A stretch of 64,000 bases of DNA, taken from the NCBI RefSeq assembly GCF_003668555.1, contig NZ_RCWN01000001.1, forward strand, positions 682,001 through 746,000, given 5' to 3'. Made by a program: the position numbers and the translations under genes. This stretch comes from Notoacmeibacter ruber (GTDB lineage Bacteria > Pseudomonadota > Alphaproteobacteria > Rhizobiales > Rhizobiaceae). The notes below the pieces were generated by a model. That model worked only from the letters and a program-made list of their open reading frames with translations. It did not search any database and was not told where the DNA came from. Below are positions 15,391 through 42,303 of this stretch, one piece after another. Each line of letters starts with the position of its first letter. Position 1 is the first letter of the stretch.

Positions 15391-15984
15391 CGTCGCCATC
15401 TGAGGATGAATTGGATCCGGACGCGCAAACATTCGAACAGCCGTTCAACCTTGAGAGCCCGATGCTCCAGAGCAACCGCTTTCCGCAAACTGTCAGCCCC
15501 CAAATTGGCCGATCGCGACTTTCCCGAGAATAACGCGGAAACAGCGCGCCGCTTTGCGTCTCAGTCGGAAGGGTGTACCTGCAAGCCTCTGAAAAGTCGG
15601 CATAATTCTGCAGAGAAATGAAGAGCAGCAAAAAGCAAGGAAGGAGTGGCTGGGGAACCTGGATCCCCAGCCAGCGACACGAGGGGTCGCCAAGTCATTG
15701 ATTTCCGGGTCGTTACGAAAGCCACAAACCAATTTTGTGCTACAGAATGGGCACGAGATCCATGGCGATTTCAAGGCATCCAAGGGGCGGCACGTTCGGG
15801 GGCTGAATGGAGAGAGGTAGAAGCCTATTGCGGACGCTGTGCGCCGCGGACGAAAGACGCAGAGTGCGTTGCCGATCCGCGCCCGCCGATCCGGCGGACT
15901 AGATTCTCTACAAGTTTACCGTGGCATTCAGCGACGCAAAGTCGAACGCTAGTCCGAGTGCAGTTCGATTCGGAGTCGAAGGTC
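15391..15984. other. Intergenic region spanning the chromosome/island boundary
   Basis: No convincing gene is seen. The stretch contains the left copy of the tRNA-Gln 3' end (15647-15664). To its left is chromosomal spacer after the ABC operon; to its right is island DNA leading to parA, with no protein similarity recognised. The ParA frame is open back to 15646 but homology begins at 15985. Confidence 0.5.
15647..15664. other. Left attachment site (copy of tRNA-Gln 3' end)
   Basis: The 18 bases are identical to 42230-42247. The next bases continue as CCCCAGCCA, so the site forms a 9-bp inverted repeat (TGGCTGGGG / CCCCAGCCA, 15647-15673) around a 9-nt loop. The tRNA copy lacks this arrangement. 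Identity stops immediately on both sides of the 18 bp. Confidence 0.8.
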
Positions 15985-16677
15985 ATGTCGGAAAGTTCGC
16001 AGACTCATACGAAAAACGTTCGACCCGTCGTCGTGTCGATCCAGAATCAGAAAGGGGGTGTCGGTAAATCGACCGTCACAATTAATCTCGCCTGTACGGC
16101 TCGGGCGTTGGGCTGGCGTACGATGATAATCGACACCGATCCGCAAAGCACCTGTATCGGTTGGCATCGGCGTGGCGGTGACATCGATGTCGAAAGCAGT
16201 GAACCGAGCGACGTCCCTGATAGGCTTGAGGCGGAGTATCGTAAACGCGATTTCATTTTCGTGGATACCGCCGGTTCGGGCGCGGCTGCTCATTCGCGTA
16301 TCAACGACTGCTCGGATATTGTCATCGTTCCGTTTTCGACGTCCGTCGATGACCGTCAGCCCAGTCTCGACACGCATTTTCGAGCGCGCAGGAAGACGAG
16401 GGCCTATCTGCTACCGTGCTTGGTGGATCCGCGTTCGTCCGGCAGGCGTATCAATGCAAGCAAGACGACGATCCAGACTCTCCTGCAGAGATTGTCGCCG
16501 GAGTTTCGGGCGTTTTTCCTCACCTCGATCATCACCCGACGCCTGCCGCTGACGGACCAGATGGCGAGCGGCGGATCGTGCCAGTCCGGCTATCGCAACA
16601 ATGAGTCACGGTCGGAATTCGATCGACTGTTCGAAGAGTTGACGCAGAAATTGTGCGAGGGAAAAAATGAGTGCTGA
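15985..16677 (+). CDS. parA: ParA-family partition ATPase
   Basis: A 230-residue ParA/MinD-superfamily protein. The deviant Walker A motif is QNQKGGVGKSTVTINLAC, the A' motif is FIFVDTAGSG, and DTDPQSTCIGWH follows the family pattern. The N-terminus has no HTH extension, so it is of the small type Ib (ParF-like) class that pairs with a small DNA-binding partner. The next gene starts 11 bp before its stop and encodes such a small basic protein. On integrative elements these pairs stabilise the excised form; that role is inferred. Start ATG at 15985 was chosen because the motif begins about 20 residues later. Confidence 0.88.
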   Translation: MSESSQTHTKNVRPVVVSIQNQKGGVGKSTVTINLACTARALGWRTMIIDTDPQSTCIGWHRRGGDIDVESSEPSDVPDRLEAEYRKRDFIFVDTAGSGAAAHSRINDCSDIVIVPFSTSVDDRQPSLDTHFRARRKTRAYLLPCLVDPRSSGRRINASKTTIQTLLQRLSPEFRAFFLTSIITRRLPLTDQMASGGSCQSGYRNNESRSEFDRLFEELTQKLCEGKNEC

Positions 16678-16948
16678 GCGAAAGAAGCCGCAAATGCGTC
16701 TGCGCAAAAAGAGAGGAGAGGCGATCAGGAGGATACAGGACTGCACGGCGTCGACCTATCGCGTATCGGACCGGATCCGCGCGAAGATGAGCGAGCATGC
16801 ATCAGTTCGCGGATTGAGCCTCAACATGCTGATCATCGACCTCTTCGACGAGTTCCTGGAGCGCGAGGAGGGCAAGGGGATTCAGCAGATAGACCCGGAG
16901 TTTGCGCGGCTCATCTACGAGTTGGACGATGAGGCCCACCGCGGGTAG
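16667..16948 (+). CDS. Small basic protein, probable ParA partner (RHH-like)
   Basis: A 93-residue protein overlapping parA by 11 bp. The N-terminal 35 residues are highly basic (RKKPQMRLRKKRGEAIRR). The middle (TYRVSDRIRAKMSEHASVRG then LSLNMLIIDLFDEFLER) fits a beta strand followed by two helices as in ribbon-helix-helix proteins such as ParG. It is followed by an acidic tail. I infer a centromere-binding or ParA-stimulating role from the overlap; the fold call is by eye. Confidence 0.6.
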   Translation: MSAERKKPQMRLRKKRGEAIRRIQDCTASTYRVSDRIRAKMSEHASVRGLSLNMLIIDLFDEFLEREEGKGIQQIDPEFARLIYELDDEAHRG

Positions 16949-16951
16949 CCT

Positions 16952-16983
16952 CATCACGGCATCACGGCATCACGGCATCACGG
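16952..16983. repeat. 8-bp tandem repeat, four perfect CATCACGG units
   Basis: Four uninterrupted copies begin 4 bp after the stop of the ParA partner. Read on the minus strand in another register the unit is GATGCCGT, differing at two bases from the GATGCCAC unit of the larger array at 20723. It could serve as a partner-protein binding array (centromere-like) or be a slippage product. The following bases to 17271 hold no gene I can support. Confidence 0.85.
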
Positions 16984-17271
16984 CAAAATGATCTGTCCGT
17001 CGATCGGACCAGCGTCGGAAAGGCGTGGCGCAGCCGAACATCGAGCCATTACCTTCTCCAGGGAACGCCGAAGCTGAAGACTGTTAACCACGTCGACGGA
17101 CAGCTGGTCGGGTCCACTGGACAGGTAGGGTCGTCATCTGCATGTTTCTTGTATCGGTCGCGATTGGCGCGGCCGACCATCACGTCAGAGAGCAGGCGGC
17201 CAATAGCGGCCGCCGGCGGGATTGCAGTCCTACCAGCGACCTGACCCTACTGTCTCGCAAGGGAGAACAGC

Positions 17272-18264
17272 ATGGCTACTGCGCTTGTCGCGCGCACGTC
17301 GAAGACGTGCAACCTTTTTTCTGATGATCAATCGACATTTCGCACGTTCAATGCGGGGGCTGGTCCGATCGGGCCGGAGCCGCAGACCCTCCACGACGAA
17401 CAGATTGTCGCCGTCGTGGAAGAGTTGGGACGCTCCGTCGTCGACGCCGCGCTCTCGACTGCGAAATGCTGCGACGACGACCCGTTGTTGCGGGACCTGA
17501 CACCGCTTGGATCGCTGGCACGGTCGCTGGTTACCAGAGCCGGACAGGTGATCCCCGATATCATCGCGACGGTGCTTCGGGCCAACGGCCAGACGGTGCT
17601 CCGGGAGTTCGCGCTGCCCCAGACCCAGACGGCGCGAGACCTGGTTGCAAACAACCGGATGACCGGACCGATCATGCTGCCCCACAATGATGGGATCGTC
17701 GGATATCTGCATGCCGATCTGATCGTCATCGATCCGGATACGCACCATGCGACCATCCTTGAATGCGTGCGGGGCAGCACTGCACTCTCCAAACCGAAAA
17801 CCAAAGCGCTGATTCGATCCGTTCGGACGGCGACGCTCAGTGCTCGGTCGGCGCTGGGGGCGGAAGGATACCGGGTCGATGATGTCACGTGTGGCGTGTA
17901 CGAACGGTATGGTCGAGCAGGCCACGACGACGACATGACGATTCGGGAGGAGGCAATCGACGACTTCTTCGGAGTGCCGATAGCCCCATATCTCATGCAC
18001 TTCGACGGCTGCGTGTATTCCCATCTCTCGGAAGCGGTGCCCGACGCTCTCGGCGCAGTCATCGCCATGCATTCGGGTATCGTCGATCCATCGGCGGAGA
18101 TGACCGGACGACCTTCGACGGAGGCGCCGCGTTTGAGCCGGGTTTCCCTCGCCGGGAACATCATGTCGATCGATGTCGCGAAGCTCGTGAGCCCTGCCGA
18201 TCGCCGGAGGAGCCGCGAAGCGGAGAGCGATGAGCGGCAACCGGCCGGTCCAGCTCGCCGCTAG
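17272..18264 (+). CDS. Unknown 330-aa island protein
   Basis: Not recognised. The ATG follows GGGAGA by 5 nt. The protein has no signal peptide or membrane segment; the N-terminal 30 residues and the C-terminal tail (RRRSREAESDERQPAGPARR) look disordered. A central alpha/beta region contains HADLIVIDPDTHHATILEC followed by VRGS, where an acidic strand is followed by Glu-x-x-Arg. This resembles the D...E-x-K layout of PD-(D/E)xK nucleases with the Lys replaced, but the match is weak. It is the first gene of a unit running to the AAA+ protease at 20601. The reading frame is supported by codon use and the ribosome site; function is open. Confidence 0.65.
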   Translation: MATALVARTSKTCNLFSDDQSTFRTFNAGAGPIGPEPQTLHDEQIVAVVEELGRSVVDAALSTAKCCDDDPLLRDLTPLGSLARSLVTRAGQVIPDIIATVLRANGQTVLREFALPQTQTARDLVANNRMTGPIMLPHNDGIVGYLHADLIVIDPDTHHATILECVRGSTALSKPKTKALIRSVRTATLSARSALGAEGYRVDDVTCGVYERYGRAGHDDDMTIREEAIDDFFGVPIAPYLMHFDGCVYSHLSEAVPDALGAVIAMHSGIVDPSAEMTGRPSTEAPRLSRVSLAGNIMSIDVAKLVSPADRRRSREAESDERQPAGPARR

Positions 18265-18612: not shown

Positions 18613-18613
18613 T

Positions 18614-18736
18614 ATGGATCACAGGAACAGCACTGCTCCGTGCTTCGCCGTCTCGGCTGCCGGACACGACACCGGGACGCTCGAACGTCTCTCTCCGAAT
18701 ACCGCCTCAGATGCGTGCGAGCGAGGTGCGACATGA
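18614..18736 (+). CDS. Possible 40-aa peptide, coupled to the AAA+ protease gene
   Basis: ATG at 18614 follows AAGGG by 7 nt and the previous stop by 1 bp. The frame ends at a TGA that overlaps the AAA+ gene start in an ATGA (18733-18736). Such an overlap suggests translational coupling, and the frame may be a leader rather than a functional peptide. The sequence (MDHRNSTAPCFAVSAAG...) has no recognised domain. Confidence 0.4.
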   Translation: MDHRNSTAPCFAVSAAGHDTGTLERLSPNTASDACERGAT

Positions 18737-20601
18737 GCACGAGTTTCGCCAAACCACCAAGTCGCCGGACGCTGGCCGACCTAAGGGACGGCAGCGACAT
18801 CGACAATCGCGACGACGCCGTGACCGCCTTCGTGTGGCTGCGTCTGGGCCAGCCCTTTGCCGATCTCGACTTCGAGGAGAAGCGGCATCTGATCCATGTC
18901 GTCTGTCCCGTCGAGGCGGCCGGCGCGATCCGAGACGTTCTGCTTGGACATTCGAGGCTGCTGGACGTTCTCTACTATCCGCCGTCCGCGCGGGAGACGC
19001 TCACGCAGTTGCAGCGCCGTTCGATGGTCTTAGTTGCTTCCTCGGATGAAACGCTCGAACTGCCGCCGGATATCCGCATCGATTTCACATACACCGTGAA
19101 GGACGCGGAAGACCTTTTTTGCGCGGCTTACGGCATTTCTCTCGGCCTGGGGCTTCCGGATTTGGACGATCTGCGTGACGTCCTCTTGACCACGGAAGAC
19201 CCGCAGCTGGCGCACGATCGCCTTCGCCGCATCGCGGCGGCGCCCGAGCCGAAGAAGGCGGCATCGGGCAACAGGAGGAGCGATGCCATAGTCCATACGA
19301 GCGGTGCGAAGGACAAGGTGGAAACGCCTCCGCCGCAGGATGTGTCTCCGCATGTCGAGCTGCATCGACCTTCGTCTCCGCGGATCTCCGAACTTTCCGG
19401 TTACGGCAAGGCCGGTAACTGGGCACGGGATCTCGTCCGCGATATCGCGGACGTCCGGTCCGGCAAGCTCGATCCGATCGAGATGGACCGCGGCGCGCTC
19501 GTTTATGGCCCACCCGGAACAGGCAAGACGCTTCTCGTTCGCGCGATCGCAGCGGAGGCCGGCATTCCCATGGTTCTCGGCGGTTATTCGATCTGGCTCG
19601 ACAGCAAGCAGGCTCGAGGCGATGTCGCCATCCGGATGATCCGTGAGAGCTTTCGCACGGCGCGAGAAAACGCGCCGTCGATCCTCTTCATTGACGAAAT
19701 CGACACGTTCGGCGTCCGGGGTGCAAACGGAACCAACGATTCATGGTTCAGGCCGTTCGTGACCACGCTTCTCACGGAGATCGACGGAGCGATGAGCACT
19801 CCGGGTGTCGTCGTCATGGCCGCCACGAACGATCCTGATAGCGTCGATCCTGCCCTCAAGCGGGCCGGGCGACTGGACCGGTCCTTCGCGATCGGAATGC
19901 CGGACGAGCACGGACTGTTCGGGATACTCGGGCACCATTTCGGTGACGCGGATGACGATACGCTCGGAACGGTCGCTGCAGCGCTTGCGGGATCGGTAAC
20001 CGGCGCCGACATCGCCCGCCTCGCTCGCGAAGTCCATGGAAGGGCTCGTCGTGACCGAACCGAGGTGACCGCAGACCTACTGATCCAATCGGCCCTGCCG
20101 CAGGATGACCGCAGCGACGCCGATCTCTGGCGCGTGGCAGTGCATGAGGCAGGTCACGCTATTCTACACGCGACTTGCGGGAATGTGCCCGAAAGCCTGT
20201 CGATTCTTCCGAACGGTCAGTTCGGCGGTGGCGTCCGGATCGCAGGCAAAGTGTCTACGATGCCCGGCGCCGTCGACCGCCATGTGCTTATGCTGCTGGG
20301 CGGGCGTGCTGCCGAGGAGGTCGTACTGGGTCGTTGCAGTGCGGGCGCGTCCGCCGATCTCGATGAGGCGACCCGGCTTCTTTCTGGTGATGAGGCTTCG
20401 GGAATGGGTGCATGGCTGACGGCCGGTCAGGTTTCCCATGAGGCGATCGAACGACGAATGCGTCGGTTGTACGCCGAGGCAGTGATGCGGATCATCGCTA
20501 AACGGAAGGCCGTCGAAGATCTTGCTCGACTTGCCGTTCGGAAGCGCGTTCTATCCAAATGTGTTCTCGAAGAGTTTGTCGGCGGACTGGATCTGACATG
20601 A
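18733..20601 (+). CDS. Soluble FtsH-like AAA+ zinc metalloprotease
   Basis: A 622-residue protein joining an AAA+ module to an M41-like protease. AAA+: Walker A GPPGTGKT (259-266), Walker B ILFIDEID (317-324), and a second region of homology ATNDPDSVDPALKRAGRLDR. Protease: HEAGH (H471, E472, H475) and GASADLDEAT with D542 as the likely third zinc ligand, the same order and similar spacing as in FtsH. Unlike FtsH there is no transmembrane segment; instead a 220-residue N-terminal region of unknown fold (VWLRLGQPFADLDFEEKRHL) precedes the ATPase. It is therefore cytoplasmic and probably unfolds and cuts a dedicated substrate. It ends the island's left-arm operon. Confidence 0.88.
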   Translation: MSTSFAKPPSRRTLADLRDGSDIDNRDDAVTAFVWLRLGQPFADLDFEEKRHLIHVVCPVEAAGAIRDVLLGHSRLLDVLYYPPSARETLTQLQRRSMVLVASSDETLELPPDIRIDFTYTVKDAEDLFCAAYGISLGLGLPDLDDLRDVLLTTEDPQLAHDRLRRIAAAPEPKKAASGNRRSDAIVHTSGAKDKVETPPPQDVSPHVELHRPSSPRISELSGYGKAGNWARDLVRDIADVRSGKLDPIEMDRGALVYGPPGTGKTLLVRAIAAEAGIPMVLGGYSIWLDSKQARGDVAIRMIRESFRTARENAPSILFIDEIDTFGVRGANGTNDSWFRPFVTTLLTEIDGAMSTPGVVVMAATNDPDSVDPALKRAGRLDRSFAIGMPDEHGLFGILGHHFGDADDDTLGTVAAALAGSVTGADIARLAREVHGRARRDRTEVTADLLIQSALPQDDRSDADLWRVAVHEAGHAILHATCGNVPESLSILPNGQFGGGVRIAGKVSTMPGAVDRHVLMLLGGRAAEEVVLGRCSAGASADLDEATRLLSGDEASGMGAWLTAGQVSHEAIERRMRRLYAEAVMRIIAKRKAVEDLARLAVRKRVLSKCVLEEFVGGLDLT

Positions 20602-20722
20602 CCGGACCAGAATGATGAACAGGGCATCGGCGATCCAACTCTCAGCAGAACATTGATCGCCGACGGCCAAATCAGATCTGGATTTTACATCTGGACAGTT
20701 CGGCTCGCCTACCGAACCCTTC

Positions 20723-20802
20723 GATGCCACGATGCCACGATGCCACGATGCCACGATGCCACGATGCCACGATGCCACGATGCCACGATGCCACGATGCC
20801 AC
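20723..20802. repeat. 8-bp tandem repeat, ten perfect GATGCCAC units
   Basis: Ten uninterrupted identical copies occupy exactly 80 bp in the spacer after the AAA+ protease gene. Because 8 is not a multiple of 3, every frame reads through in a 24-bp period (minus strand WHRGIVAS repeated), producing spurious short frames. The unit is related to the four-copy array at 16952. Units are direct and spacer-free, so it is not a CRISPR array. The rest of 20602-20819 shows nothing else. Confidence 0.92.
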
Positions 20803-20819
20803 GAAATTGTGACGGTCCC

Positions 20820-22123
20820 CAGTTGGACACCTCGAAGAACCTCAATCTTTAATTGTTGAAGGCGGCTTGATCGAAGTCTTGAGGCCGCTCTGGCTCTGAC
20901 GCGCTGCATTTCAGGGCTTTTGGGATTCCAGGACTGTTGTCCGACCGGATGACGGCGTTTCTGCCGTCACGCGGGCATACTTCGCCCCTGATGTTAGACG
21001 AAACGCGTGAGATTGTAGGCGAGATTGACCATGCCGATCTTTGCCTCGGCGCGCGCGATGCCGATGGTTCGGATGAAGGTGCCCATCGGCCCCTTCTGAC
21101 GGGCGAAGACGTGTTCGACCTTCGAGCAGATCGATGAACGCGGGCCATTGGCTCGAGACGTTCTCTCGCTCATCGGTCTGCCCTTCGGTTTCTTGCGATA
21201 GATGTCGGACGTGAAGCCGTTCCTCTCCAGCCAATCCTCGTTCTTCTTCGGGCGATAAGCAGTATCCGCCCAGACCTTTGAACCCGTATTTTGCCGATCG
21301 AGAACTACCGGCAATTGCGCGCCGTCCCAGGCGGCGGCGCTCGTTGTCGACCAGCCGCGGATGAAGCCGTGCCGCTGGTCGATCGAGATATGGTTCTTGT
21401 AACCGAATGCCGGGACCGCGATGTCGATATGCTGCGGCTTTCCCTCCACCGCCGCTTTTGCCTTGGAGAACTTCACGGTCCAGCGAGCGTCTCGATCCTT
21501 TTGACGCAGTTTGGCGGGTTTGCCCTTCCAGCCTTCCGGTACCTCGCCGACCTTGATCGCAGCCTTCTCGTCCTCGGTATTGCGCTGCTTCGGCGCCGCG
21601 ACAATAGTCGCGTCCACAATCTGCCCGCCCATCGCCAGAAGCCGGCCTGCGCGAGATGCTTGTCGAAGCGGACGAACAGACTCTTGACCGCACCGGCCTC
21701 GGCCAGATGATCGCGGAACAGCCAGATCGTCTTGGCGTCCGGGACTCTGTCCGCGAGACCGAGCCCGACGAACCGCATGAACAACAGACGGTCCTGGATC
21801 TGGAACTCGGCCTGATCGTCCGAGAGGTTATAGAGCGCCTGCAGGACCAGGACCTTGAACATCAGAACCGGATCGTAGGGCGGCCTGCCGCCCTTTGCGC
21901 CGCCAGAACGCTTCAGGGCCTTGGCCAGCGACTTCCTGACGACTTCCCACGGAACAATCGCGTTCAGCTTCTCCAGAGGATCGCCGGCTTCGCTCAGTCG
22001 GCCATAGCGCTCATCAACGTCCCAGAACCCCGACTGACCCCGCATCTCATCCTGCCGATCTCCATCATATCGATGGAATCACAGATCACGCGGAAAGGGG
22101 AGGTTCTTCGAGGTCTCCAGCTG
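20820..22123 (-). mobile_element. IS5-family insertion sequence
   Basis: About 1.3 kb bounded by 24-nt inverted repeats (20820-20843 and 22100-22123) that match at 22 of 24 positions, sharing the perfect core ACCTCGAAGAACCTC. It encloses a DDE transposase in two frames. The right end falls inside an IS3 orfA relic, where OrfA similarity stops after LKQL. No clear target duplication is visible, and the OrfA continuation is absent on the left, implying a later rearrangement. Confidence 0.75.
20994..22045 (-). pseudogene. IS5-family transposase, frameshifted
   Basis: The N-terminal frame (WDVDERYGRLSEAGDPLEKL, ALYNLSDDQAEFQIQDRL) loses similarity after LAQAGF near 21636. The C-terminal frame resumes at once with MGGQIVDATIVAAPKQRN and carries the rest of the catalytic core: Asp in VDATI, Asp in VWADTAYR, Glu in KVEHVFARQKG. 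One missing base in the codon for the residue after LAQAGF explains it. There is no slippery heptamer at the site, so I call it disrupted rather than programmed. Confidence 0.78.
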
Positions 22124-22215
22124 CTTGAGCGAGAGGTTCTCGTCCTCGAGCTGCTTCACTCGGCGCAATTCGCCTACGATGAGACCACCGTACACCTACT
22201 TCCAGCGGTAGAAGG
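22121..22215 (-). pseudogene. IS3-family orfA relic
   Basis: Minus-strand translation reads FYRWK, stop, VYGGLIVGELRRVKQLEDEN then LSLKQ, the leucine-zipper part of an IS3 OrfA. It is cut on one side by the IS5 end and abutted on the other by the IS3 terminus at 22219. A stop codon within it confirms decay. Confidence 0.65.
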
Positions 22216-22250
22216 TCTTGACGTGACCCCCAGCTTGCCTCCAGCTGGGA

Positions 22251-22613
22251 TTAGAGCCGGGCCTTTGTTTTGCGCATCAGCGCGGCTGAAGCAATGGGCT
22301 GCGTAGCGGAGCCCGTAGGGCGTAGCGAAGCAGGCCATTGCTGATCGAGTTCGGCGGCGAATGCCGCCGGTGTTGCGTAGCCGAGAGAGGAGTGTGGACG
22401 CTCCCGGTTGTAGTCTTCAACCCAAGCTGCGATCTCGACCCGCGCGTGTGCCATGCTGAGGAACAGGGTCTCGTTGAGGAGTTCGTCGCGCATGCGGCCG
22501 TTGAAACTCTCGACATAGCCATTCTGCATCGGCCTTCCGGGAGCGATGTAATGCCACTCGACGCCGATCTCGCCGCACCATGCGAGCACCGCGTTGCCGG
22601 TAAGTTCGGTGCC
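22251..22613 (-). pseudogene. IS3-family transposase OrfB, C-terminal part
   Basis: Carries the rest of the rve domain: [40 protein letters not shown] with the catalytic Glu, and [20 protein letters not shown]. It is separated from its N-terminal half by the IS110. The frame seems to extend to 22670 only because IS110 DNA happens to be open. Confidence 0.82.
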
Positions 22614-22615
22614 GT

Positions 22616-22782
22616 AGCACGTCGGGAAGAAGCGCTGCCGACAGGTTATGGCCACTCGCGCAGCCTTCAAGTAGCGCAGCGGGTGGCCATAACCGGGTCT
22701 CGGGTCTCAACAGTGGTTTTGCACAACCACACCGCTGAGGAGACCGGCTACGACCGCTACCCATTCTATCGCTTCGACCGTC
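22616..22782 (+). ncRNA. Candidate bridge RNA region, IS110 left end
   Basis: IS110-family elements are known to express a structured bridge RNA from a non-coding end. This end contains a 12-bp perfect stem GGTTATGGCCAC (22644-22655) pairing with 22683-22694 around a 27-nt loop. The right end (24007-24244) has a 9-bp stem GGCATCCGG/CCGGATGCC at 24176-24197 and is the alternative location. No promoter is assigned; the call is inference. Confidence 0.35.
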
Positions 22783-24006
22783 CTGGTTGCCATCGACATT
22801 TCCAAGCACCGCCACGAGGTGCTCATCGGGGTTCCGGGCAAGAAGCGCCGTCGCCGCATAACGATCATGAACTCGTTGGAAGACTTCCAGCGCTTGTCTG
22901 CGGTGCTGTCCAGCTACGACCTGCCAGTTCGAATTGGGTTCGAAGCGACCGGCAACTATCACAGGCCGCTGGTGTATCATCTTGGACAGGCCGGGTTCGA
23001 CTTCAAGCTCATCTCCTCCGTCGGTCTCGCCCGGACACGCGAGGCTTTGCACAACAGCTGGGACAAGAACGACCCGAAGGACGCGCAAGTCATCCTGCAC
23101 ATGCTGGAGATCGGCGCCGTGCAGTTCTTTCATGACCCGGTGGTCGTTGGGACCGCAGACATCCAAGAGCTGTCGAAGACGCACGAGATCGTCTCACGTT
23201 CGAAGACCGAGCTCTGGCACCGCATCCTGACGCATTACCTGCCGCTCTATTTCCCCGAGGCCGAACGGTTTCATCGAAGCTCCCGGACCGACTGGTTCTT
23301 GGCGTTTCTCGAGAAGTACTCGACACCGACGATGATCACGGCCATGAGCCAGGAAGCTTTCATCGAAGATGCCTGGCAGGTGGTGGGCAGGAAGGTTTCC
23401 AAAGAACGCCTGCTTTCAGATATTTACGCCACGGCGGTCGACTCTGTCGGGTTGCCCGTTAGTCCGGATTCCGACGCCGTCCGCATGTTCCGCCTCGTCC
23501 TTGCCGAAGGCAGAAGTCTTGTCCGCCAGCGCAACGAGATCGAAGCCCGGGCGGTCGAGTTTCTCTCCGATCTGCCGGACTATAAGCTGCTGACAACCAT
23601 TCCTGGCATCGGCCCGATCAATGCCATGACTATCTTGGCGGAGGCCGGTGACCTCCGCCGCTTTCGGCATCATAGGCAGTTCCTGAAGTTCTGCGGCATG
23701 GACCTTGCCACGGTCCAGTCCGGCATGTTCCGCGGTCAGCGCCGGATCTCGAAGTACGGCAATGCCCGGCTGCGCCGCACGCTCTGGATGGCTGGCCAAA
23801 CGGCCGTCCTTAAGCGAACCAACAGCTTCCGGGACAAGTTCGAACGCTACATCTCGAAGGACCGACACAACGCTCATCTGCGCCGCAAGGCCTACACCGC
23901 GATCGCGGCCAAGATGGCGCGCACCGTACACGCCGTGGTCAATCACGGCGAACCCTATCGCCCCTTCTTCGAGGGGGTGAGCCCAGGCGGAAGGACCTCT
24001 CTCTGA
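22783..24006 (+). CDS. IS110-family DEDD transposase
   Basis: About 408 residues. The RuvC-like DEDD domain has VAIDISKHRHEV (first Asp), GFEATGNYHRPL (Glu) and DKNDPKDAQV (Asp pair). The C-terminal transposase_20 domain has TTIPGIGPINAMTILAEAG, and a serine-containing LATVQSGMFRGQRRISKYG follows. The first ATG/GTG/TTG in frame is GTG at 22819, which would remove the first catalytic Asp (codon 22795). The frame is open to 22738, so translation probably starts at an unusual codon such as CTG at 22783, or an alteration removed the start. It lies inside, and opposite to, an IS3 orfB. Confidence 0.82.
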   Translation: MVAIDISKHRHEVLIGVPGKKRRRRITIMNSLEDFQRLSAVLSSYDLPVRIGFEATGNYHRPLVYHLGQAGFDFKLISSVGLARTREALHNSWDKNDPKDAQVILHMLEIGAVQFFHDPVVVGTADIQELSKTHEIVSRSKTELWHRILTHYLPLYFPEAERFHRSSRTDWFLAFLEKYSTPTMITAMSQEAFIEDAWQVVGRKVSKERLLSDIYATAVDSVGLPVSPDSDAVRMFRLVLAEGRSLVRQRNEIEARAVEFLSDLPDYKLLTTIPGIGPINAMTILAEAGDLRRFRHHRQFLKFCGMDLATVQSGMFRGQRRISKYGNARLRRTLWMAGQTAVLKRTNSFRDKFERYISKDRHNAHLRRKAYTAIAAKMARTVHAVVNHGEPYRPFFEGVSPGGRTSL

Positions 24007-24212
24007 CCAGTGCCGTGGAGGCAGTTCTCTGACCTCGTAGATAATGTTCGGGCCTTCTGCTTGGGATTTGGGATCTCGTATTAAGGACGGTGAGGGCCGC
24101 CATCGCGCGTACCCTGTGTTTGCTATGGATGAGATCATTTTTTGACGGCAGAGCCCGTCTGGGCAACCTTATCAGGGCATCCGGTCGGCCGGATGCCACA
24201 GGACCTGCTGAC

Positions 24213-24734: not shown

Positions 24735-24784
24735 CCCGTGGCAGATCTGGAGATGAGCGACAGCTTCCCGTTTGGCAGCGGGCG

Positions 24785-25051: not shown

Positions 25052-25117
25052 CTCTTCCGTCCTTCTGTCAGGGCCGGACTCTAATCAAGACTGGAGGAAA
25101 ATCAGGGGGTCACGTCA

Positions 25118-25214
25118 CACTACGCCGCCCGTCGTTTTGACTGTTCACCACATGCCAAAACACGGACGGGCTCAAATTGGCTTGAGAAACGCTGGGGGTC
25201 ACGTCACGTACACT
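25118..25214. other. Insertion-sequence debris between IS3 and the wzy-like gene
   Basis: After the IS3 end (…TCACGTCA, 25117) comes about 75 bp without features and then a second copy of the terminal sequence CTGGGGGTCACGTCAC at 25192-25207. This looks like the stub of another related IS end. Confidence 0.45.
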
Positions 25215-34874: not shown

Positions 34875-34877
34875 CGC

Positions 34878-36155
34878 ATGATCGATTCACCGACAGAACG
34901 ACCGCGCCTGATATTTCTCACCCAGTTCTATGATCCGGAGCCGGCTTATAAGGGGCAGGCCTTCGCCGAGGCCGTTCGAGAGATGGGCTACGACGTTGAG
35001 GTGGTCACTGGTTTCCCAAATTATCCAGGCGGCAGATTATATGATGGCTACCGGATCTGGCCGTGGCAGCGCAGCGTCGAAAACGGCATTCGCATCACGA
35101 GGCTCGCCATGTACCCGAGTCACAATGCCGGAAAAGTGGGCCGGATCGCGAATTATCTCAGCTTCTTTTGTAGCGCTTTTCTCTATCTGTGTTTCGCAGC
35201 CAGGCGAGCCAACCTTATATATGTCTATCATCCGCCCTTGACCGTAGGACTGGCGGCGGCGGCATCGCGTTGGCTGCACGGCCGACCAGTTATTGTCGAC
35301 ATTCACGATCTATGGCCAGATACCCTTCCCGCAACCGGTATGATTTCCAGTCCGCGAATCCTGAGGTGGATCGATCATGCGGCGAGCTGGATGTATCGAA
35401 ATGTTCAATTTATCATCCTGCATACCGAAGGTTTTGGCACGAAACTGCTGGAACGCGGGGTACCACAGGAGAAAATGAAGACGATCATCGGCTGGTGTAA
35501 CGAACACCGGCTGCCTGATAATCCGCCTGAAGGCATCGCCCGCCTGACAACAGCTCCTGGTCTGAAATTATTGTATGCTGGCAATCTTGGACCTGCGCAG
35601 GCGCTGGACTCCGTTCTCGGTGCGGCCGAAATATTGCAACGCAACGGACAGCCTACACTCGCGACCTTCTGTTTTCTCGGTGACGGTGTCAGCAAAGATA
35701 AGCTGGAGAAGCGGGCAGGTGAGCTGGGGCTTGAGAATGTCGTTTTCCTTCCGCGCGTCTCGGCGCGCGATGTTCCCGCGTATCTTGACGCCGCAGACGC
35801 GCTTTTGGTTCATTTGCGCGACGAGCCCCTTTTCCAAATCACGCTGCCATCAAAGACGCAGGCGTATCTATATGCCGGAAAGCCAATTATTATGGCTGTT
35901 CTGGGGGAGGCGGCTTGCCTGATCGAAAGGGCTGATGCTGGGCTTTGCATTCGCCCAGAGGATCCGGAAGCTATGGCGAAGGCCGTGAGGAGGCTCGCGC
36001 ACATGAGTTCGGACGAAAGAGAGGCGATGGGAGAACGCGGCCGTGTTTATTACGAGCGCGAACTTTCCATGGAGCGAGGCCTTCGGCAATTTTCAGAGAT
36101 ATTTGATAGGATAACCCAGCTAAGTACATTTGATTATCGCCATGGTCGGGACTAG
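34878..36155 (+). CDS. GT4 glycosyltransferase, WbuB-like (putative L-FucNAc transferase)
   Basis: A 425-residue retaining GT-B enzyme: FLTQFYDPEPAYKGQAFAEA, VVTGFPNYPGGRLYDGYRIW, VDIHDLWPDTLPATGMI, KLLYAGNLGPAQALDSVLGA and LPSKTQAYLYAGKPIIMAVL. Its domain pattern and position right after fnlABC correspond to WbuB of E. coli O26, proposed to transfer L-FucNAc. The gap to fnlC is 3 bp. Donor specificity is inferred from context. Confidence 0.85.
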   Translation: MIDSPTERPRLIFLTQFYDPEPAYKGQAFAEAVREMGYDVEVVTGFPNYPGGRLYDGYRIWPWQRSVENGIRITRLAMYPSHNAGKVGRIANYLSFFCSAFLYLCFAARRANLIYVYHPPLTVGLAAAASRWLHGRPVIVDIHDLWPDTLPATGMISSPRILRWIDHAASWMYRNVQFIILHTEGFGTKLLERGVPQEKMKTIIGWCNEHRLPDNPPEGIARLTTAPGLKLLYAGNLGPAQALDSVLGAAEILQRNGQPTLATFCFLGDGVSKDKLEKRAGELGLENVVFLPRVSARDVPAYLDAADALLVHLRDEPLFQITLPSKTQAYLYAGKPIIMAVLGEAACLIERADAGLCIRPEDPEAMAKAVRRLAHMSSDEREAMGERGRVYYERELSMERGLRQFSEIFDRITQLSTFDYRHGRD

Positions 36156-36350
36156 ATCACAGCCAGAGGCCGATGATCGCAGCAATAGTGGCCATAGGCA
36201 GGATAGCTTCGAGCGAGTTGGTCTTAAAGATGCACGCCCAGCCGCTTGAGCTTACCGTTCTGGTCCTCAATCTCTTTCAGGCGCTTGTTCTTTGACAGCC
36301 ATCCAGGCATAGACTTCGAGCGGTAGAACGCTGCTTCCGTGACGCCTATC
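36156..36350 (-). pseudogene. IS3-family orfA relic, distal part
   Basis: From 36350 down to about 36240 the minus strand reads IGVTEAAFYRSKSMPGWLSK, NKRLKEIEDQNGKLKRL, typical of IS3 OrfA. Its N-terminal part lies at 38652-38739, on the other side of the IS66 insertion. The rest of 36156-36235 shows nothing definite. Confidence 0.72.
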
Positions 36351-36434
36351 GTAAGCGTCGCCGTCACCCCCTTGTTTGTGGCGGCGTAGCCGGCGAGTTT
36401 CCGTGCCTTTCGGACGAGTGGAGGGCTTGGAGCC

Positions 36435-36864
36435 ATGTCGATGTCATATGCTGATGCTGGCACGAAGCCAGTTCGACGGTTCGAGGTCTTCACAGGCGCG
36501 GGTCGACGACGAGACTGGAGCGACGAAGAGAAGGTGGCGATTGTCGCGGAGAGCTATTCCGGCCTGGAGAGCGTCTGCGCCGTTGCTCGGCGCCATGGGC
36601 TGGAGCTACTCGCAACTCTTCACTTGGCGGCGCAAATTGCGAGAGACGGCTCTTGCGAAGTTGGATGCAACCCCGACTGAACCGGCGTTCGTACCGGCGG
36701 TCATCGAGAAGAAGGCTCGCGCGAAGCGGAAGCGGTCACGCTCGTCCGGCAAGACGATCCCCGCGGTTGAACTGGAGATCGACGGGGTCTCGGTGAAGAT
36801 CGCCAAGGGGACCGACGCCAGAACGAATGCGGCGGTGATCGATGCGTTGAAGGGTAGCGCGTGA
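36435..36864 (+). pseudogene. tnpA: IS66 TnpA, frameshifted
   Basis: The first frame gives RRDWSDEEKVAIVAESYSGL and ESVCAVARRHG. Similarity then continues one frame over with SYSQLFTWRRKLRETALAKL through ELEIDGVSVKIAKGTDA. One extra base near 36600 separates the HTH from the rest. Its end overlaps tnpB by 4 bp, as in intact IS66. Confidence 0.8.
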
Positions 36865-37256
36865 TCGGTCCGAGTGGCGCCGTCCGCGTCATGGTGGCGA
36901 CGAAGCCTGTCGACTTCCGCAACGGGGCCGAAGGTCTCGCCGCGCTGGTGCGCGAGAAGATTGCGGCCGACCCGTTCGGCGGAACGGTCTACGTCTTCCG
37001 GGCCAAAGGCGCCGATCGGATCAAGCTGATCTTCTGGGACGGCACCGGGCTGGTTCTTATTGCAAAGCAACTCGAGGACGGCGGTTTCAAGTGGCCGGCG
37101 ATCACGGACGGCGTCATTAGGCTGACGGCCGCGCAGGTCTCCACCGCTATCGAAGCCCTTCCCGACGATCCCGGCACGCTGAAGGTGATGCTGATCGCAG
37201 AGCGTGTGCGGTCCGAGCGGCTTGCCCAGATCATCAGGGAATTGCAGCGTCATTGA
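36861..37256 (+). CDS. tnpB: IS66 Orf2-like protein TnpB
   Basis: A 131-residue protein with the family pattern VMVATKPVDFRNGAEGLAAL, VREKIAADPFGGTVYVFRAK and RIKLIFWDGTGLVLIAKQLE. Its terminal codons CAT-TGA arise at the junction with the inserted IS3 end (TGACGTGACC begins at 37254), so the normal C-terminus has been replaced. It is required for IS66 transposition in known elements. Confidence 0.85.
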   Translation: MIGPSGAVRVMVATKPVDFRNGAEGLAALVREKIAADPFGGTVYVFRAKGADRIKLIFWDGTGLVLIAKQLEDGGFKWPAITDGVIRLTAAQVSTAIEALPDDPGTLKVMLIAERVRSERLAQIIRELQRH

Positions 37257-37625
37257 CGTGACCCCCAGCTTGCCTCCAGCTGGGATTAGAGCCGGGCCTT
37301 TGTTTTGCGCATCAGCGCGGCTGAAGCAATGGGCTGCGTAGCGGAGCCCGTAGGGCGTAGCGAAGCAGGCCATTGCTGATCGAGTTCGGCGGCGAATGCC
37401 GCCGGTGTTGCGTAGCCGAGAGAGGAGTGTGGACGCTCCCGGTTGTAGTCTTCAACCCAAGCTGCGATCTCGACCCGCGCGTGTGCCATGCTGAGGAACA
37501 GGGTCTCGTTGAGGAGTTCGTCGCGCATGCGGCCGTTGAAACTCTCGACATAGCCATTCTGCATCGGCCTTCCGGGAGCGATGTAATGCCACTCGACGCC
37601 GATCTCGCCGCACCATGCGAGCACC
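37254..37625 (-). mobile_element. IS3 fragment inside IS66, exact copy of 22219-22590
   Basis: 372 bp identical by eye to the left end of the IS3 element at 22219, same orientation, no gaps. It encodes the OrfB C-terminus ([20 protein letters not shown] to LMRKTKARL). The IS3 left end is intact. The other side breaks in mid-gene at 37625 against tnpC, so an IS3 first inserted after tnpB and a deletion then removed the IS3 right part plus the tnpC 5' end. Confidence 0.88.
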
Positions 37626-38630
37626 CAGGTGCTGGTCTCCAAATACGCCGATCACCTGCCGCTTCATCTTCAGGCGCAGATCTATGCCCGTCAAGGCGTC
37701 CGTCTCGACCGATCGACGCTCGCAGACTGGGCGGGACGAGCGGTCTTACTGCTCCGACCGGTCCACGAGCGGCTGCTCGGTCACCTTAAGGCGTCGACCA
37801 AGTCATTGGCTGACGAAACGACTGCGCCGGTTCTCGATCCCGGACGTGGCCGCACCAAGACCGGCCAGCTCTTCGACTATGCCCGCGACGATCGTCCCTT
37901 CAGCGGCGATGATCCGCCGGCGGTCGCCTATGTCTATGCACCGGACCGAACGGCGTTGCGCTCCGCCGAGCATCTGCAGGGCTTTAACGGTGTCCTTCAG
38001 GTCTACGGCTATGGCGGCTACAAGGTACTCGCCGAGAAGGGACAAATGCATCTTGCCTTCTGTTGGGCGCATGTCCGTCTGCGATTCTATGAACTCACCT
38101 CCAATGGACCTGCGCCGATCGCGACGGAGGCGTTGAAGTGCATCGCCGCTCTCTATCAGGTCGAGACCACCATCCGCGGCCGGTCTCATGACGAGCGTCG
38201 GAAAGTTCGGCAGGTGACGAGCCGTCTACTTCTCGACGCGCTCGAAGCCTTCCTGCGCGAGAAGCTCGCCCCGATCAGCCAGAAGACGAAGCTCGCCGAG
38301 GCGATACGCTATGCCCTGTCGCGATGGGAGGGACTTTGCCGGTTCGCCGGTGACGGAACGATCGAGATCGACAGCGACACCGTCGAGCGCTCGATCCGCC
38401 CGCTGGCGCTGACGCGCAAAGATGCGCTATTCGCGGGCTACGACGGTGGCGCCCGGCACTGGGCCGTGATCGCCTCGCTCATCGAGACCTGCAAGCTGAA
38501 CGACATCGATCCGTACGTCTATCTCAGCGCCGTCATCACCCTCATCGTCGATGGCCATCCCAACAGCGAGATCGACGACCTCATGCCGTGGACCTTCAAG
38601 CCCGAAGCCGATCTCGCCGCCGTGGCGTGA
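37626..38630 (+). pseudogene. tnpC: IS66 transposase TnpC, N-terminally truncated
   Basis: About 333 residues of TnpC remain, starting [20 protein letters not shown] and including the DDE-type core (LFDYARDDRPFSGDDPPAVA, LAFCWAHVRLRFYEL, DGTIEIDSDTVERSIRPLAL) to the normal C-terminus. The missing N-terminal portion (zinc finger and leading domain, roughly 190 residues) was replaced by the IS3 fragment. Confidence 0.85.
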
Positions 38631-38651
38631 GGACGACGCTTCCCGCCTATC

Positions 38652-38739
38652 TGTCAGCTAACCCGCCAACCGTAGCGCCGGCATCAGGGTCTCTTAGCGC
38701 AAAGGCGATCTGCTCGTTTGAATATCTTTTCTTAGGCAT
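38652..38739 (-). pseudogene. IS3-family orfA relic, proximal part
   Basis: Minus strand MPKKRYSNEQIAFALRDPDA then GATVGGLAD is a standard IS3 OrfA N-terminus. Joined through one copy of the IS66 target duplication it leads into the part at 36240-36350, though one base out of frame, so it was already decayed when IS66 landed. Confidence 0.75.
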
Positions 38740-38822
38740 GTTCGGCACTCATCTCGTCGGAGGATGATGCCCGAAGAGTCACATTCAAAAATGGAACAGT
38801 TTGTTGGGTCAGGAGCCAACGA

Positions 38823-39755
38823 TTAAGCTTTCGGGCTAAAGTCTTTCGCTGCGCGAAACTCAGCGCGCTCGTCAAGATTGCTGCGACCGGACCGACGGAC
38901 GAGTTTTTCTGCCTCCGCCTGGGGGAGGGCGACCGAGATAGATTTGGCGAGACCGGTCCGTCGCTTGCCATAGCTGACTGTGGCAGTGCGGTCCGAAGCG
39001 TGACCGGCGAGCACGGCGACGGCGACTGCCGACATGGATTGCTTGGCGGTCGCGATACAGGCATGCCGCGTGGTGTAGAGAGAGATTCTGCGGATCTTGA
39101 GCGCATGGCAGGCACTGGCGATCCGTCTTGCGATCCGGTCCCAAACGTTCTTCCACGATCTCGATTGCGAGCGGTATATCTGCAGTCGATCGATCAGACT
39201 TTGAACCATCGAACAAAACGACGGCTCTTTCCTGTTGATCCCCGCCAAGTTGAGGCGACGGACGTCGGCTAAACCCCTTCCGTTGGTGCGCTTTGCACAT
39301 CGTACGACCAGCATCGTCCCTTCAATCGACGCGGTTTGCCATTCAATTGGGCGTAGGCCGAGATACGTATTGATGACCATGAATCGTGCAGCGATCAGAC
39401 CGTCCTTTCCACCGGTCAGAAGTCGGCCGCTGACCTTGACGATTTCCTCCCACCTCACCGACTTGCGCTTACGGCTTGCGGTGCGCTTGGGGCCATCCTT
39501 TTTCGGGGCCGGTGTCTCGATCCGCAACGATCCGACGTTTCTATCGCGTTGCTCCTGCGAGATCGCGGCCTTGTAGGTTCGGATGGTCGACGCTCTCCAA
39601 ACTCCATGCTGTCCCGCGAACCACGCCGCGACATCATACAGGCTGGGCGCGTCTGTTCCTTCCCTTTTGGCGACGGTCGCTGCCAGCCGTCGGTAGCGTT
39701 CCCGATAGTAATCTTCGGTTTGGCTTGTCCGCGTCGGTTGGTCCGGTCCAAACAT
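38823..39755 (-). CDS. Tyrosine recombinase/phage-type integrase
   Basis: A 310-residue tyrosine recombinase. Catalytic pattern: R135 in TYLGLRPIEW, R230 in LYTTRHACIA, H252 in LAGHASDRTATVSY and nucleophile Y262. The first His of the usual HxxR box is Tyr here (YTTRH), a tolerated change. The N-terminal 80 residues form a short SAM-like core-binding domain. It is the second recombinase of the island. Three 9-bp direct repeats lie just upstream of its start. It may act on another att pair or resolve dimers. Confidence 0.82.
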   Translation of the reverse strand: MFGPDQPTRTSQTEDYYRERYRRLAATVAKREGTDAPSLYDVAAWFAGQHGVWRASTIRTYKAAISQEQRDRNVGSLRIETPAPKKDGPKRTASRKRKSVRWEEIVKVSGRLLTGGKDGLIAARFMVINTYLGLRPIEWQTASIEGTMLVVRCAKRTNGRGLADVRRLNLAGINRKEPSFCSMVQSLIDRLQIYRSQSRSWKNVWDRIARRIASACHALKIRRISLYTTRHACIATAKQSMSAVAVAVLAGHASDRTATVSYGKRRTGLAKSISVALPQAEAEKLVRRSGRSNLDERAEFRAAKDFSPKA

Positions 39756-40143: not shown

Positions 40144-42084
40144 TCATGTCGACCGCTCCCACGGACGCTTCGATTTCTCGGTCACCCATGGCAACAACGA
40201 TATTGGCTGCGGGCTGAGGTGACCGGTCACGACGGGTATGCGTTCGATGACCGCCGACAGACGCTGCAGACTGGCCCGCTGCGTATATCGACCCGCGGTC
40301 TCGCCACTCGCCGCCCGTCCCGCGATCTCGTCGATCAGCATCTGATCGACGCCGAGTTCCTTCAGCGCGGTGGCGTTTCCGTGCCGCAGCGCGTGGATGA
40401 ACCTCTGCCATGCTTCGAGGTTTCGGTTCGCGAGTGCCGCTTTCGCCTGCCCTACGAAATCCTTGTAGAACCGATCGCCGGGATCGAACCCGGGCCGCGG
40501 CAGGGCAGGGTAGAGTTCCGGGAACAGCTTCGTCGATCCGGTCGCGCGAACGGCGTCGGCGTAAGACCAGATCCCGAGACGCGCGATCTCCGAATGCAGC
40601 GGGAGGATGCGGATCGAATTTTCGTTTTTGAGGCGTCGACCGGCATTGGGCCGGATCTTGATCGCGAGACCGCCATCCCATTGCACCAGGTCGTCGACGT
40701 CGAGGCCGCATACTTCGCCGCGGCGAACTCCGAGATAGTAGATCATCTGCGGGACGTAAAAGAGTGAGCCGTGGAAGATACGTGATCCAGTCGACCACAA
40801 TTGCCCCGGCGATGCGCATCCGGTGAAGGGCGGGAGTTCGAAAACCGGACCGACCCGGTCCGATCCCGGCTTCGGGCTTCCGGCCCGCGCCTCGCGGCCC
40901 TTCTTCTTCTTGGGGCGCAAGGACTTCCAGTTCCGTGGCGGAACGATAAAGCCCTGGCCTTCGAGATAGCCGAGAAACTGCTCGATCGAACCGATGTGCT
41001 TGCGGATGGTCTGGCCGGAGAGCCCAACCGGGGGAAGCGGCTTTCCCGCTTCCTCCGCTTCACGGACCTGCCGCCGGGTTTCCATGCGAAGTTCCGTGGC
41101 GGACAACGTTCTGAGACGCGCACTGCGTCCGTAATTGGTGAGGATCTCGTCGAAGAGGTTCCGGAAGGCGCCCAGGGTCTGTTGGCGAACTTCGGACAAT
41201 CTTTTCAGCCCCTCGGCCGTCATGGTTTCGGCGAAGAACGTCACGGCGACTCCGATATCGCGTTTGGTGGCGTCCTCGATGTCCTTGCGGCCTTTGAGAT
41301 ATCGGCCGACCCACTCCTCCATGTCCGCGACCTCCAGATCCGAACGCTGGTCGCTCTGGCTCTCGACGGCAGGATGCGTCGGAACGTCGGAGGTGGGGAC
41401 GGATGTCTCCTTTTGCGCGTCGTCGATGTCGGCGCCGTCAAACCAGGCCAGATCCGGATAAGCCGATCGGGTGGAGAGCAGTTGCGTCGCCCGCGCATCC
41501 ATCACCGCGCTCTGGGCTGCTTCGAGCGCCATCGTGCCAACGGGCAGGTTTTGGCTGCGAAGCAGCGCGCGGGTTTCTTCGCGGCCACCGGAACTCAAAG
41601 CGCAGGCTCGTTCGGCCTCATAGGTCGAGACGATCCACGGATGGCGGTCGGGCTGCACCCCGGATGCCTGCAGATAGGCAAGCCCGGGACACGGACCTTC
41701 GAAGGTCAGCCGGCGGTGCGCGCCGAACAGTGCGATGAGCTTGTAGGCGTGTCCGACCTCCGCGTCGATGAGGGCTTCGCTCTCCGAGCCGAAGCCGCAA
41801 TGCCTTGCCCCGAGCCTGAGCGTCGCGTGCCGCGCTTCCATGTCGGCGATCTCGGCCTTGAAGATCGTCTGCATCTGTTCGGCGTTCAGCGTCATCGTCT
41901 CGTCCTGCCTCATCGCGTGGAGCAGCCTGTTCAAATCGAGGGCGATGATCTCCACCGCGGCAAGATCGCTGATTCTGATGGGCAGGGTAAAGTGCTGCCG
42001 GCCTGCCGCCGTTTGCGCGGCGGCGCGCCGCGGGATGCGGGCGCGCCAGTAATGGCGTCGTCCGCGCCGCGTGAGATTCGGCAC
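40144..42084 (-). CDS. int: Island integrase, 646-aa tyrosine recombinase
   Basis: Long integrase with N-terminal LTRRGRRHYWRARIPRRAA, the motif of the DUF6538-type head found on many alphaproteobacterial island integrases, then a middle region, a core-binding domain and a C-terminal catalytic domain. Catalytic motifs: MIYYLGVRRGEVCGLDVDDL (Arg), FIHALRHGNATALKELG (H-x-x-R-H), and GRAASGETAGRYTQRAS with the Tyr nucleophile. It is 146 bp from the 3' end of tRNA-Gln, facing away from it, and probably catalyses integration at the 18-bp att sequence. Confidence 0.88.
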   Translation of the reverse strand: MPNLTRRGRRHYWRARIPRRAAAQTAAGRQHFTLPIRISDLAAVEIIALDLNRLLHAMRQDETMTLNAEQMQTIFKAEIADMEARHATLRLGARHCGFGSESEALIDAEVGHAYKLIALFGAHRRLTFEGPCPGLAYLQASGVQPDRHPWIVSTYEAERACALSSGGREETRALLRSQNLPVGTMALEAAQSAVMDARATQLLSTRSAYPDLAWFDGADIDDAQKETSVPTSDVPTHPAVESQSDQRSDLEVADMEEWVGRYLKGRKDIEDATKRDIGVAVTFFAETMTAEGLKRLSEVRQQTLGAFRNLFDEILTNYGRSARLRTLSATELRMETRRQVREAEEAGKPLPPVGLSGQTIRKHIGSIEQFLGYLEGQGFIVPPRNWKSLRPKKKKGREARAGSPKPGSDRVGPVFELPPFTGCASPGQLWSTGSRIFHGSLFYVPQMIYYLGVRRGEVCGLDVDDLVQWDGGLAIKIRPNAGRRLKNENSIRILPLHSEIARLGIWSYADAVRATGSTKLFPELYPALPRPGFDPGDRFYKDFVGQAKAALANRNLEAWQRFIHALRHGNATALKELGVDQMLIDEIAGRAASGETAGRYTQRASLQRLSAVIERIPVVTGHLSPQPISLLPWVTEKSKRPWERST

Positions 42085-42229
42085 GAGATGTCGCTGGGGC
42101 TAGTCGCGTCTCCACCACCGGCCGGGCACCCGGTGTGTACAGTTTTGTGGCACAAAACGGGACGGATGGCGCCCGGCGCGCATCGGCGGCGAAGCGAAAC
42201 GATTGAGAATCAATGACTTGATGGGTGTC

Positions 42230-42303
42230 TGGCTGGGGAACCTGGATTCGAACCAGGACTAACGGAGTCAGAGTCCGCGGGTCTACCGTTAACCTATTCC
42301 CCA
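42230..42303 (-). tRNA. tRNA-Gln (anticodon CUG)
   Basis: The complement starts TGGGGAA, folds with acceptor pairing to TTCCCCA, an anticodon arm GCGGA-CTCTGAC-TCCG(T) with CTG at the anticodon, a T arm CCTGGTTCGAATCCAGG, and an encoded CCA end. 74 nt. Its last 18 bases are the island attachment site, so the gene stays complete after integration. Confidence 0.93.

Follow-up and report, generated by a model that had tools for sequence, protein, structure and literature searches.

A probable integrated element at tRNA-Gln(CTG) in Notoacmeibacter ruber that appears to belong to a recurrent island family with a linked gene pair

The window analyzed here is a stretch of 64,000 nucleotides from Notoacmeibacter ruber (contig NZ_RCWN01000001.1, positions 682,001 to 746,000), and we consider it very probable that its segment 15647-42247 represents an integrated member of an island family found in what we take to be the Rhizobiaceae group, the family from which our comparison genomes were drawn. 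In this explanation, a tyrosine integrase (int646) would recombine the element at a transfer RNA (tRNA) gene, arm sites would assist it, cargo would have arrived later, and two neighboring genes, encoding the nuclease-fold protein p330 and an FtsH-like AAA/M41 protease, would act together. Judging from the sequences compared, the island appears to be one member of a recurrent family that favors a particular site and is marked by a clade of integrases and by two linked genes. Islands at tRNA genes are ordinary, and what is new here is a recurrent family with p330, a protein that, in the members scanned, falls outside known models. No description of this island family was found in titles and abstract openings among the matches listed from the open-licence PubMed Central literature. 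The features that carry the argument are the following, in window coordinates:

15647-15664, plus strand: far attachment (att) repeat, 18 bp, same as the tRNA-Gln 3' end (repeat search)
15691-15703, plus strand: putative integrase arm site CAAGTCATTGATT, inverted copy of 42208-42220
17272-18264, plus strand: p330, PD-(D/E)XK-fold protein (AlphaFold2 with structure comparison, alignment)
18640-20601, plus strand: AAA/M41 protease, FtsH-like, with Walker A/B-type and HEAGH motifs (profile matches, alignment to solved FtsH)
40144-42084, minus strand: int646, tyrosine integrase (PF00589, 3e-9; Gln(CTG) clade, 100/100)
42208-42220, minus strand: putative integrase arm site, inverted copy of 15691-15703
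42230-42303, minus strand: tRNA-Gln(CTG), whose 3' 18 bp (42230-42247) are the near att repeat (ARAGORN, Rfam)

An earlier, sequence-only reading had described this interval as an island delimited by a tRNA-tail repeat, and its account of the two ends held up. The 18-bp sequence TGGCTGGGGAACCTGGAT is present with identical letters and in direct orientation at 15647-15664 and 42230-42247, and the near copy is the 3' 18 bp of a tRNA-Gln(CTG) gene that ARAGORN calls intact; Rfam agrees, with a match spanning model positions 1-71 of 71. The chance expectation for an 18-bp repeat, with up to three mismatches allowed, is 0.06 matches per shuffled window, and across the 3.25-Mb genome the sequence occurs at these two places only, even with one mismatch allowed. 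The integrase was also correctly placed just inside the repeat, with 145 bp between them; the encoded protein has a Phage_integrase match (PF00589, E 3e-9), and in a PHROGs scan of four window proteins it matched an integrase family. The 13-bp sequence CAAGTCATTGATT occurs exactly at 15691-15703 and as an inverted copy at 42208-42220, no more than 60 bp inside each end; when 60-bp pieces of the window were paired at random 20,000 times, 4 pairs shared an inverted 13-mer. This layout matches that of integrase arm sites flanking a core and thereby ties both ends to one element, and the pair may well be bound by the integrase as arm sites. Across 37 regions, the 10-mer AAGTCATTGA (either strand) occurred nine times, six times no farther than 30 bp from an att core and three times away from one; its orientation in genome G016 differs from that in the window, and the G169 copy lies outside a 28.4-kb island. 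Here G-numbers label genomes (G000 is that of the window), a C-suffix labels a contig, and L-numbers label loci.

Comparison with two congeners of the window's organism (G001 and G002) bears on both the content and the boundaries of the island. Neither has an island at tRNA-Gln, and the DNA around that tRNA differs. Genome-wide searches of both did not find p330, AAA/M41 (at E 1e-60 or better), or rec310, a second recombinase of the island, and the 18.2 kb of cargo DNA matched G001 over a single stretch of 67 bp and G002 nowhere. The claim that everything between the repeats is accessory therefore stands for p330, AAA/M41, rec310, and the cargo DNA, while ParA, p93, and the integrase were not protein-searched in the congeners. 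It had also been expected that relatives would join 15646 to the tRNA-Gln/ppx region, which is not so in either congener. In G002, DNA conserved with G001 restarts 292 bp beyond the tRNA-Gln end, and open reading frames (ORFs) past the tRNA resemble cysQ, cysNC, and cysD (names by eye), while in G001 9.8 kb fills the gap between tRNA-Gln and cysQ. This gap (L035:2180-11690) holds a Rieske and molybdopterin oxidoreductase pair, an arsenite-oxidase-like cluster by its look, with a counterpart in the window's genome at C1:2725143-2731257; because the cluster is placed differently in G001 and G000, unrelated DNA comes and goes at the tRNA-Gln/cysQ spot. The window's own genome has its cysQ-like core gene (G000:C1:677198-678022) 46.2 kb from tRNA-Gln, so that the 26.6-kb island is adjoined by 19.6 kb of other non-core DNA, namely window positions 1-15646 and the 4 kb preceding them (G000:C1:678022-682000). 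This left-hand DNA contains a hemagglutinin (DUF637) remnant and genes for amino-acid metabolism and an oligopeptide ABC transporter, and pieces of it match scattered places in the congeners at 71-88% identity, never beside tRNA-Gln. No tRNA-tail repeat was found in it, the best match being 12 of 18. As the left flank (1-15646) is not a core neighbor of tRNA-Gln, the expected occupied/empty junction was not found in the two congeners. We rejected an island reaching the core chromosome on the left, because the cysQ-like gene lies 19.6 kb farther on and there is no tRNA-tail repeat there.

Islands of similar build recur in other genomes. Integrases like int646 were found at the 3' end of tRNA-Gln(CTG) in the window, G016, G169, G055, G183, G538, and G602, at that of tRNA-Gln(TTG) in G271C2, G208, G548, G483, G507, and G511, and at that of tRNA-Ser in G069C10, G271C4, G263C44, and G528. 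In a tree of 24 rows, the Gln(CTG) integrases of the window, G016, G169, G055, G183, and G538 form one clade together with that of G065 (no tRNA in the stretch examined) with support of 100/100, and the G602 integrase falls elsewhere. Repeats of a tRNA tail enclose p330 in G169 (22 bp, 28.4 kb), G055 (25 bp, 34.6 kb), G271C4 (17 bp, 27.8 kb), and, at tRNA-Gln(CTG), G069C11 (45 bp, 33.6 kb; integrase there not identified), and in G538 a 17-bp repeat over 22.4 kb encloses AAA/M41 without p330. The window's same 18 bp are found in G016, in copies 2.6 kb apart around a truncated integrase at tRNA-Gln(CTG). The C-terminus of that integrase (L173:407-2656) runs into unrelated sequence that is thiamine-enzyme-like by eye. 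G169 has a second tRNA-Gln tail repeat (17 bp; G169:C2:522835-529302, L175) with its own integrase 6.4 kb farther out, which suggests that two elements sit one behind the other at this tRNA.

We called a p330 region tRNA-anchored if an integrase stood at a tRNA in it or if a repeat spanned p330, and 10 of 17 extended regions were anchored by this definition, seven of these ten being known as such beforehand. Among the ten regions extended with no int646 seen first, three were anchored (G055, G069C11, and G183), and p330 had no anchor in the stretches examined of G056 (one tRNA-Gly, no integrase seen), G162, G100, G141, G310, G263C14, and G288. In G288 (positions 5276-17842), an 18-bp tRNA-Met tail repeat lies 12.6 kb from the tRNA and does not span p330, and perhaps belongs to a neighboring element. 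When ten integrase matches were found independently of p330, p330 was nearby in two (G065 and G484) and AAA/M41 without p330 in one (G538), with several of these regions ending at contig ends.

What had been called an unknown protease operon appears, from its conservation across genomes, to be a recurrent gene pair. The p330 profile matched 69 places in 53 of the 297 genomes of the family sample, which includes Fulvimarina, Jiella, and Aurantimonas, and named carriers are Fulvimarina pelagi, F. manganoxydans, Jiella mangrovi, J. avicenniae, and Aurantimonas coralicida. Elsewhere in the class p330 is rare, with five matches at E 1e-10 among 384 other genomes in a search that used a broader profile and a stricter limit than the family search. 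AAA/M41 was found on the 3' side of p330 in 18 of 20 loci, which were sampled from 60 further p330 places selected by the p330 search alone; the remaining two have a broken p330 or a nearby contig end. In half of the linked loci (9/18), the protease match falls on two overlapping ORFs, one for AAA and one for M41, with a 4-bp overlap in four. The pair is also found on plasmids: Agrobacterium vaccinii pB7.6 carries a copy whose neighbors are annotated as an ATP-binding protein and an ATP-dependent Zn protease, and on NT-25 plasmid 2 p330 adjoins repABC and a gene for an ATP-binding protein, with insertion sequence (IS) genes in the protease's place.

Structure comparison of the AlphaFold2 prediction gave p330 a restriction-endonuclease-like fold. 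In the alignment, the window's p330 keeps D149 and E164 and has Val166 at the position of the catalytic Lys, and it therefore lacks a complete catalytic D...(D/E)xK; the Lys is missing in 9 of 32 aligned p330 proteins in all. Its loss in one p330 clade provides a natural comparison between nuclease and pseudonuclease. The p330 members scanned gave no Pfam, PHROGs, NCBIfam, or PADLOC model above cut-off. For AAA/M41, no transmembrane segment was predicted, and no hydrophobic segment exceeded 1.6. On four related p330 islands, PADLOC matched 10 of 10 proteins, which had been picked by eye as likely defense proteins, so that this result is a description and not a rate. They comprise BrxA, PglZ, BrxHI, and BrxC (BREX) in G169, type I restriction and specificity subunits in G271C4, HmaA, HmaB, and HmaC in G069C11, and LmuB (Lamassu) in G055. 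Defense and island control are candidate functions of the pair, and because its relatives carry known defense proteins, it is a testable candidate for a new module of either kind.

The remaining backbone genes of the island are:

15985-16677, plus strand: ParA-family ATPase, 230 amino acids, start codon chosen by eye (Pfam CbiA, 1e-12)
16667-16948, plus strand: p93, small protein (homologue L077:4533-4811 matches RHH_1, ribbon-helix-helix, 2e-6)
38823-39755, minus strand: rec310, second tyrosine recombinase (predicted structure)

Relatives of ParA occur in five other p330 loci, and p93 itself gave no family match. The earlier reading named one recombinase and overlooked rec310, whose predicted structure has the recombinase fold and alone settled its identity: its profile comparison with int646 was weak (43 columns, probability 6%, E 0.006), and a sequence search of PDB gave no match. 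It occurs with p330 in five loci. The gene content reported before, with ParA, a protease, and surface polysaccharide genes, was borne out by profile matches. The accompanying statement that there is no conjugation gene was supported in part, as a relaxase-like profile built from related loci found nothing among window ORFs of at least 60 amino acids, while type IV secretion and other relaxases were not systematically scanned. Five related loci have a Mob_Pre-like protein, three of which were scanned and scored 17.6-25.1 bits against a cut-off of 25.5; MobL, CL2, and CL3 are our labels for protein groups in these related loci.

The cargo lies between AAA/M41 and rec310:

20602-38822, no strand: inserted cargo block, IS remnants and polysaccharide genes, 18.2 kb (profiles, repeats, G+C)
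21473-22045, minus strand: transposase fragment (DUF772)
22218-22601, plus strand: 384-bp piece, 98.96% identical direct repeat of 37253-37636 (there inside IS66)
22819-24006, plus strand: IS110-family transposase
24213-24734, minus strand: rve-domain (IS3-type) transposase fragment
25215-26294, minus strand: polytopic protein, Wzy-like by appearance (hydropathy; no Pfam match)
26603-27754, plus strand: polysaccharide pyruvyl transferase (PF04230, 6e-28)
27785-28960, plus strand: glycosyltransferase (profile match)
29278-30045, minus strand: rve-domain (IS3-type) transposase
30141-31481, minus strand: polytopic protein, Wzx-like by appearance (hydropathy; no Pfam match)
31547-32590, plus strand: FnlA-like UDP-GlcNAc 4,6-dehydratase (TIGR04130, 2e-129, below its cut-off)
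32587-33723, plus strand: FnlB/WbcJ-like reductase (NF047837, 7e-60, below its cut-off)
33720-34874, plus strand: WecB/FnlC-like 2-epimerase (TIGR00236, 1e-75, above its cut-off)
34878-36155, plus strand: WcaI-like glycosyltransferase (below cut-off)
36861-38630, plus strand: IS66 tnpB and transposase

Its G+C content is 51.5% at 25201-36200, compared with 60-62% in the other parts measured, and it sits among IS genes, between the two copies of the 384-bp IS66 piece. The AAA/M41 and rec310 genes are convergent and lie 10 bp apart in G022, 18 bp apart in G100, and 18.2 kb apart in the window. The polysaccharide block would thus be a later insertion between backbone genes, with backbone first as the simplest order of events. 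An 8-bp tandem repeat, CGATGCCA, of about 10 copies (20722-20804) directly follows AAA/M41 at the start of the cargo, and a 31-bp sequence is found three times in the cargo beside IS pieces (22219-22249, 30068-30098, and 37254-37284).

We propose that the element was once a circle, which int646 recombined with the final 18 bp of tRNA-Gln(CTG). The tRNA would thereby have stayed intact at one end, with its 18 bp duplicated at the far end, and the inverted 13-bp sequences would serve int646 as arm sites in both integration and excision. The backbone of about 8.4 kb would consist of ParA, p93, p330, AAA/M41, rec310, and int646, and the IS-borne 18.2-kb polysaccharide block would later have opened it between AAA/M41 and rec310. 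The AAA ring would unfold and cut protein targets, and p330, with its nuclease fold and here no catalytic Lys, would recognize DNA or regulate, the two acting together most likely as a defense or stability module of the element. The second recombinase, rec310, may resolve or help, and retaining or moving the circle may be the task of ParA and p93.

That a tRNA-Gln island lies between the two repeats is well supported by the unique repeat, the inverted putative arm sites, the lack of an island in two congeners, and the tRNA-tail repeats beside integrases of the same clade in other genera, although the occupied/empty junction was not found. Several observations weigh on the other side. The left flank is not beside tRNA-Gln in either congener, which on these sequence comparisons leaves the exact empty site unproven, and the backbone has a G+C content of 61-62%, equal to that of its surroundings, so that composition marks only part of the cargo. 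A tRNA-Thr also lies inside the G538 repeats, which is odd for an island, and no repeat was found in the stretches examined of G183, G271C2, G208, G069C10, and G263C44. The int646 clade moreover has Arg in place of the catalytic-position His in 6/6 readable members, and His is kept in 14/14 other readable integrase rows (4/24 rows were unreadable); decay of the integrase was rejected as the cause, as the Arg is common to all six. Were the repeat incidental, the whole 46 kb from cysQ to tRNA-Gln would be one rearrangement scar and 15647 an older internal remnant. The cysQ-like gene 46.2 kb from the tRNA and the likewise non-core 19.6 kb on the left would fit such a scar, but the inverted 13-bp sequences sit exactly at these two ends, the left segment has no tRNA-tail repeat (best 12/18), and other genera have the same architecture at the same tRNA, and we regard it as very improbable compared with an integrated element.

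Within this element, the role of the pair could be explained in two ways that are nearly even and that the present data do not separate. It may plausibly be an anti-phage or anti-plasmid defense carried on islands, in which an AAA ATPase-protease like that of IetAS works with a nuclease-fold partner, although we put this somewhat below an even chance. The AAA part matches IetA models (2e-17 in the window, 7e-26 in L160), four p330 islands have BREX, type I restriction-modification, Hma, or LmuB proteins, the pair is on plasmids too (beside repABC in NT-25 plasmid 2), and the spread of p330 is patchy at 53/297 genomes; yet the four p330 proteins scanned match no PADLOC model, the window's p330 has no catalytic Lys, and a neighborhood of defense cargo is expected for any island backbone gene. 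Slightly less probable in our view is that the pair controls the element, with the protease clearing a repressor or an integrase-directing factor and so setting excision, or that it aids retention with ParA and p93. ImmA on ICEBs1 is a model for protease-set excision. The three of ten p330 regions that proved tRNA-anchored without a prior int646 sighting, and the co-occurrence of p330 with rec310 (five loci) and ParA (five other loci), are consistent with such control, whereas seven of those ten regions are unanchored, repABC plasmids carry the pair as well, and int646-type integrases have no p330 nearby in 8/10 regions (several ending at contig ends). We tentatively suggest, short of believing it the likelier case, that the pair is a new immune or element-control system, a soluble FtsH-like unfoldase-protease steered by a PD-(D/E)XK protein. 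In most members this protein would be a working nuclease and in the clade of the window a pseudonuclease that senses DNA, and islands at tRNA-Gln and tRNA-Ser together with Rhizobiaceae-group plasmids would have spread the system.

The island and its gene pair can be compared with several known systems. Like FtsH, the protease joins an AAA part to an M41 part with the zinc motif HEAGH, and its residues 253-583 align with solved FtsH; unlike FtsH, it has no predicted membrane anchor, scores 178.6 bits against a cut-off of 600 with the NCBIfam FtsH model, and is divided into AAA and M41 on two overlapping ORFs in 9/18 linked loci. Its ATPase is related to IetA models, as in IetAS, where the protease partner is subtilisin-like. 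IetS had no match among six window proteins scanned, so that IetA plus IetS are not found together, and the window's pair differs from IetAS in its M41 zinc protease and its extra PD-(D/E)XK partner. Brucella, which are related bacteria, also have a polysaccharide island. This island, GI-2 (wbo O-polysaccharide island), is reported as 15.1 kb long and excising between 41-bp repeats with changes of the surface (PMC4700419). It would share the integrase-excised type with the 26.6-kb window island and its 18-bp repeats, and shares with it direct repeats and surface polysaccharide genes. The Bradyrhizobium symbiosis integrative and conjugative elements at tRNA-Gln, reported as conjugative elements of about 0.68 Mb (PMC9174649), likewise use tRNA-Gln as an attachment locus in Hyphomicrobiales, and differ from the window island, in which no conjugation gene was recognized. 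In E. coli, defense cargo is reported to be usual on site-specific mobile elements at integration hotspots (PMC10121019), and the island family resembles these in having one element type at a preferred site with variable, often defensive cargo, whereas it differs in its hosts, in its p330-AAA/M41 backbone, and, in the window, in a cargo of polysaccharide genes.

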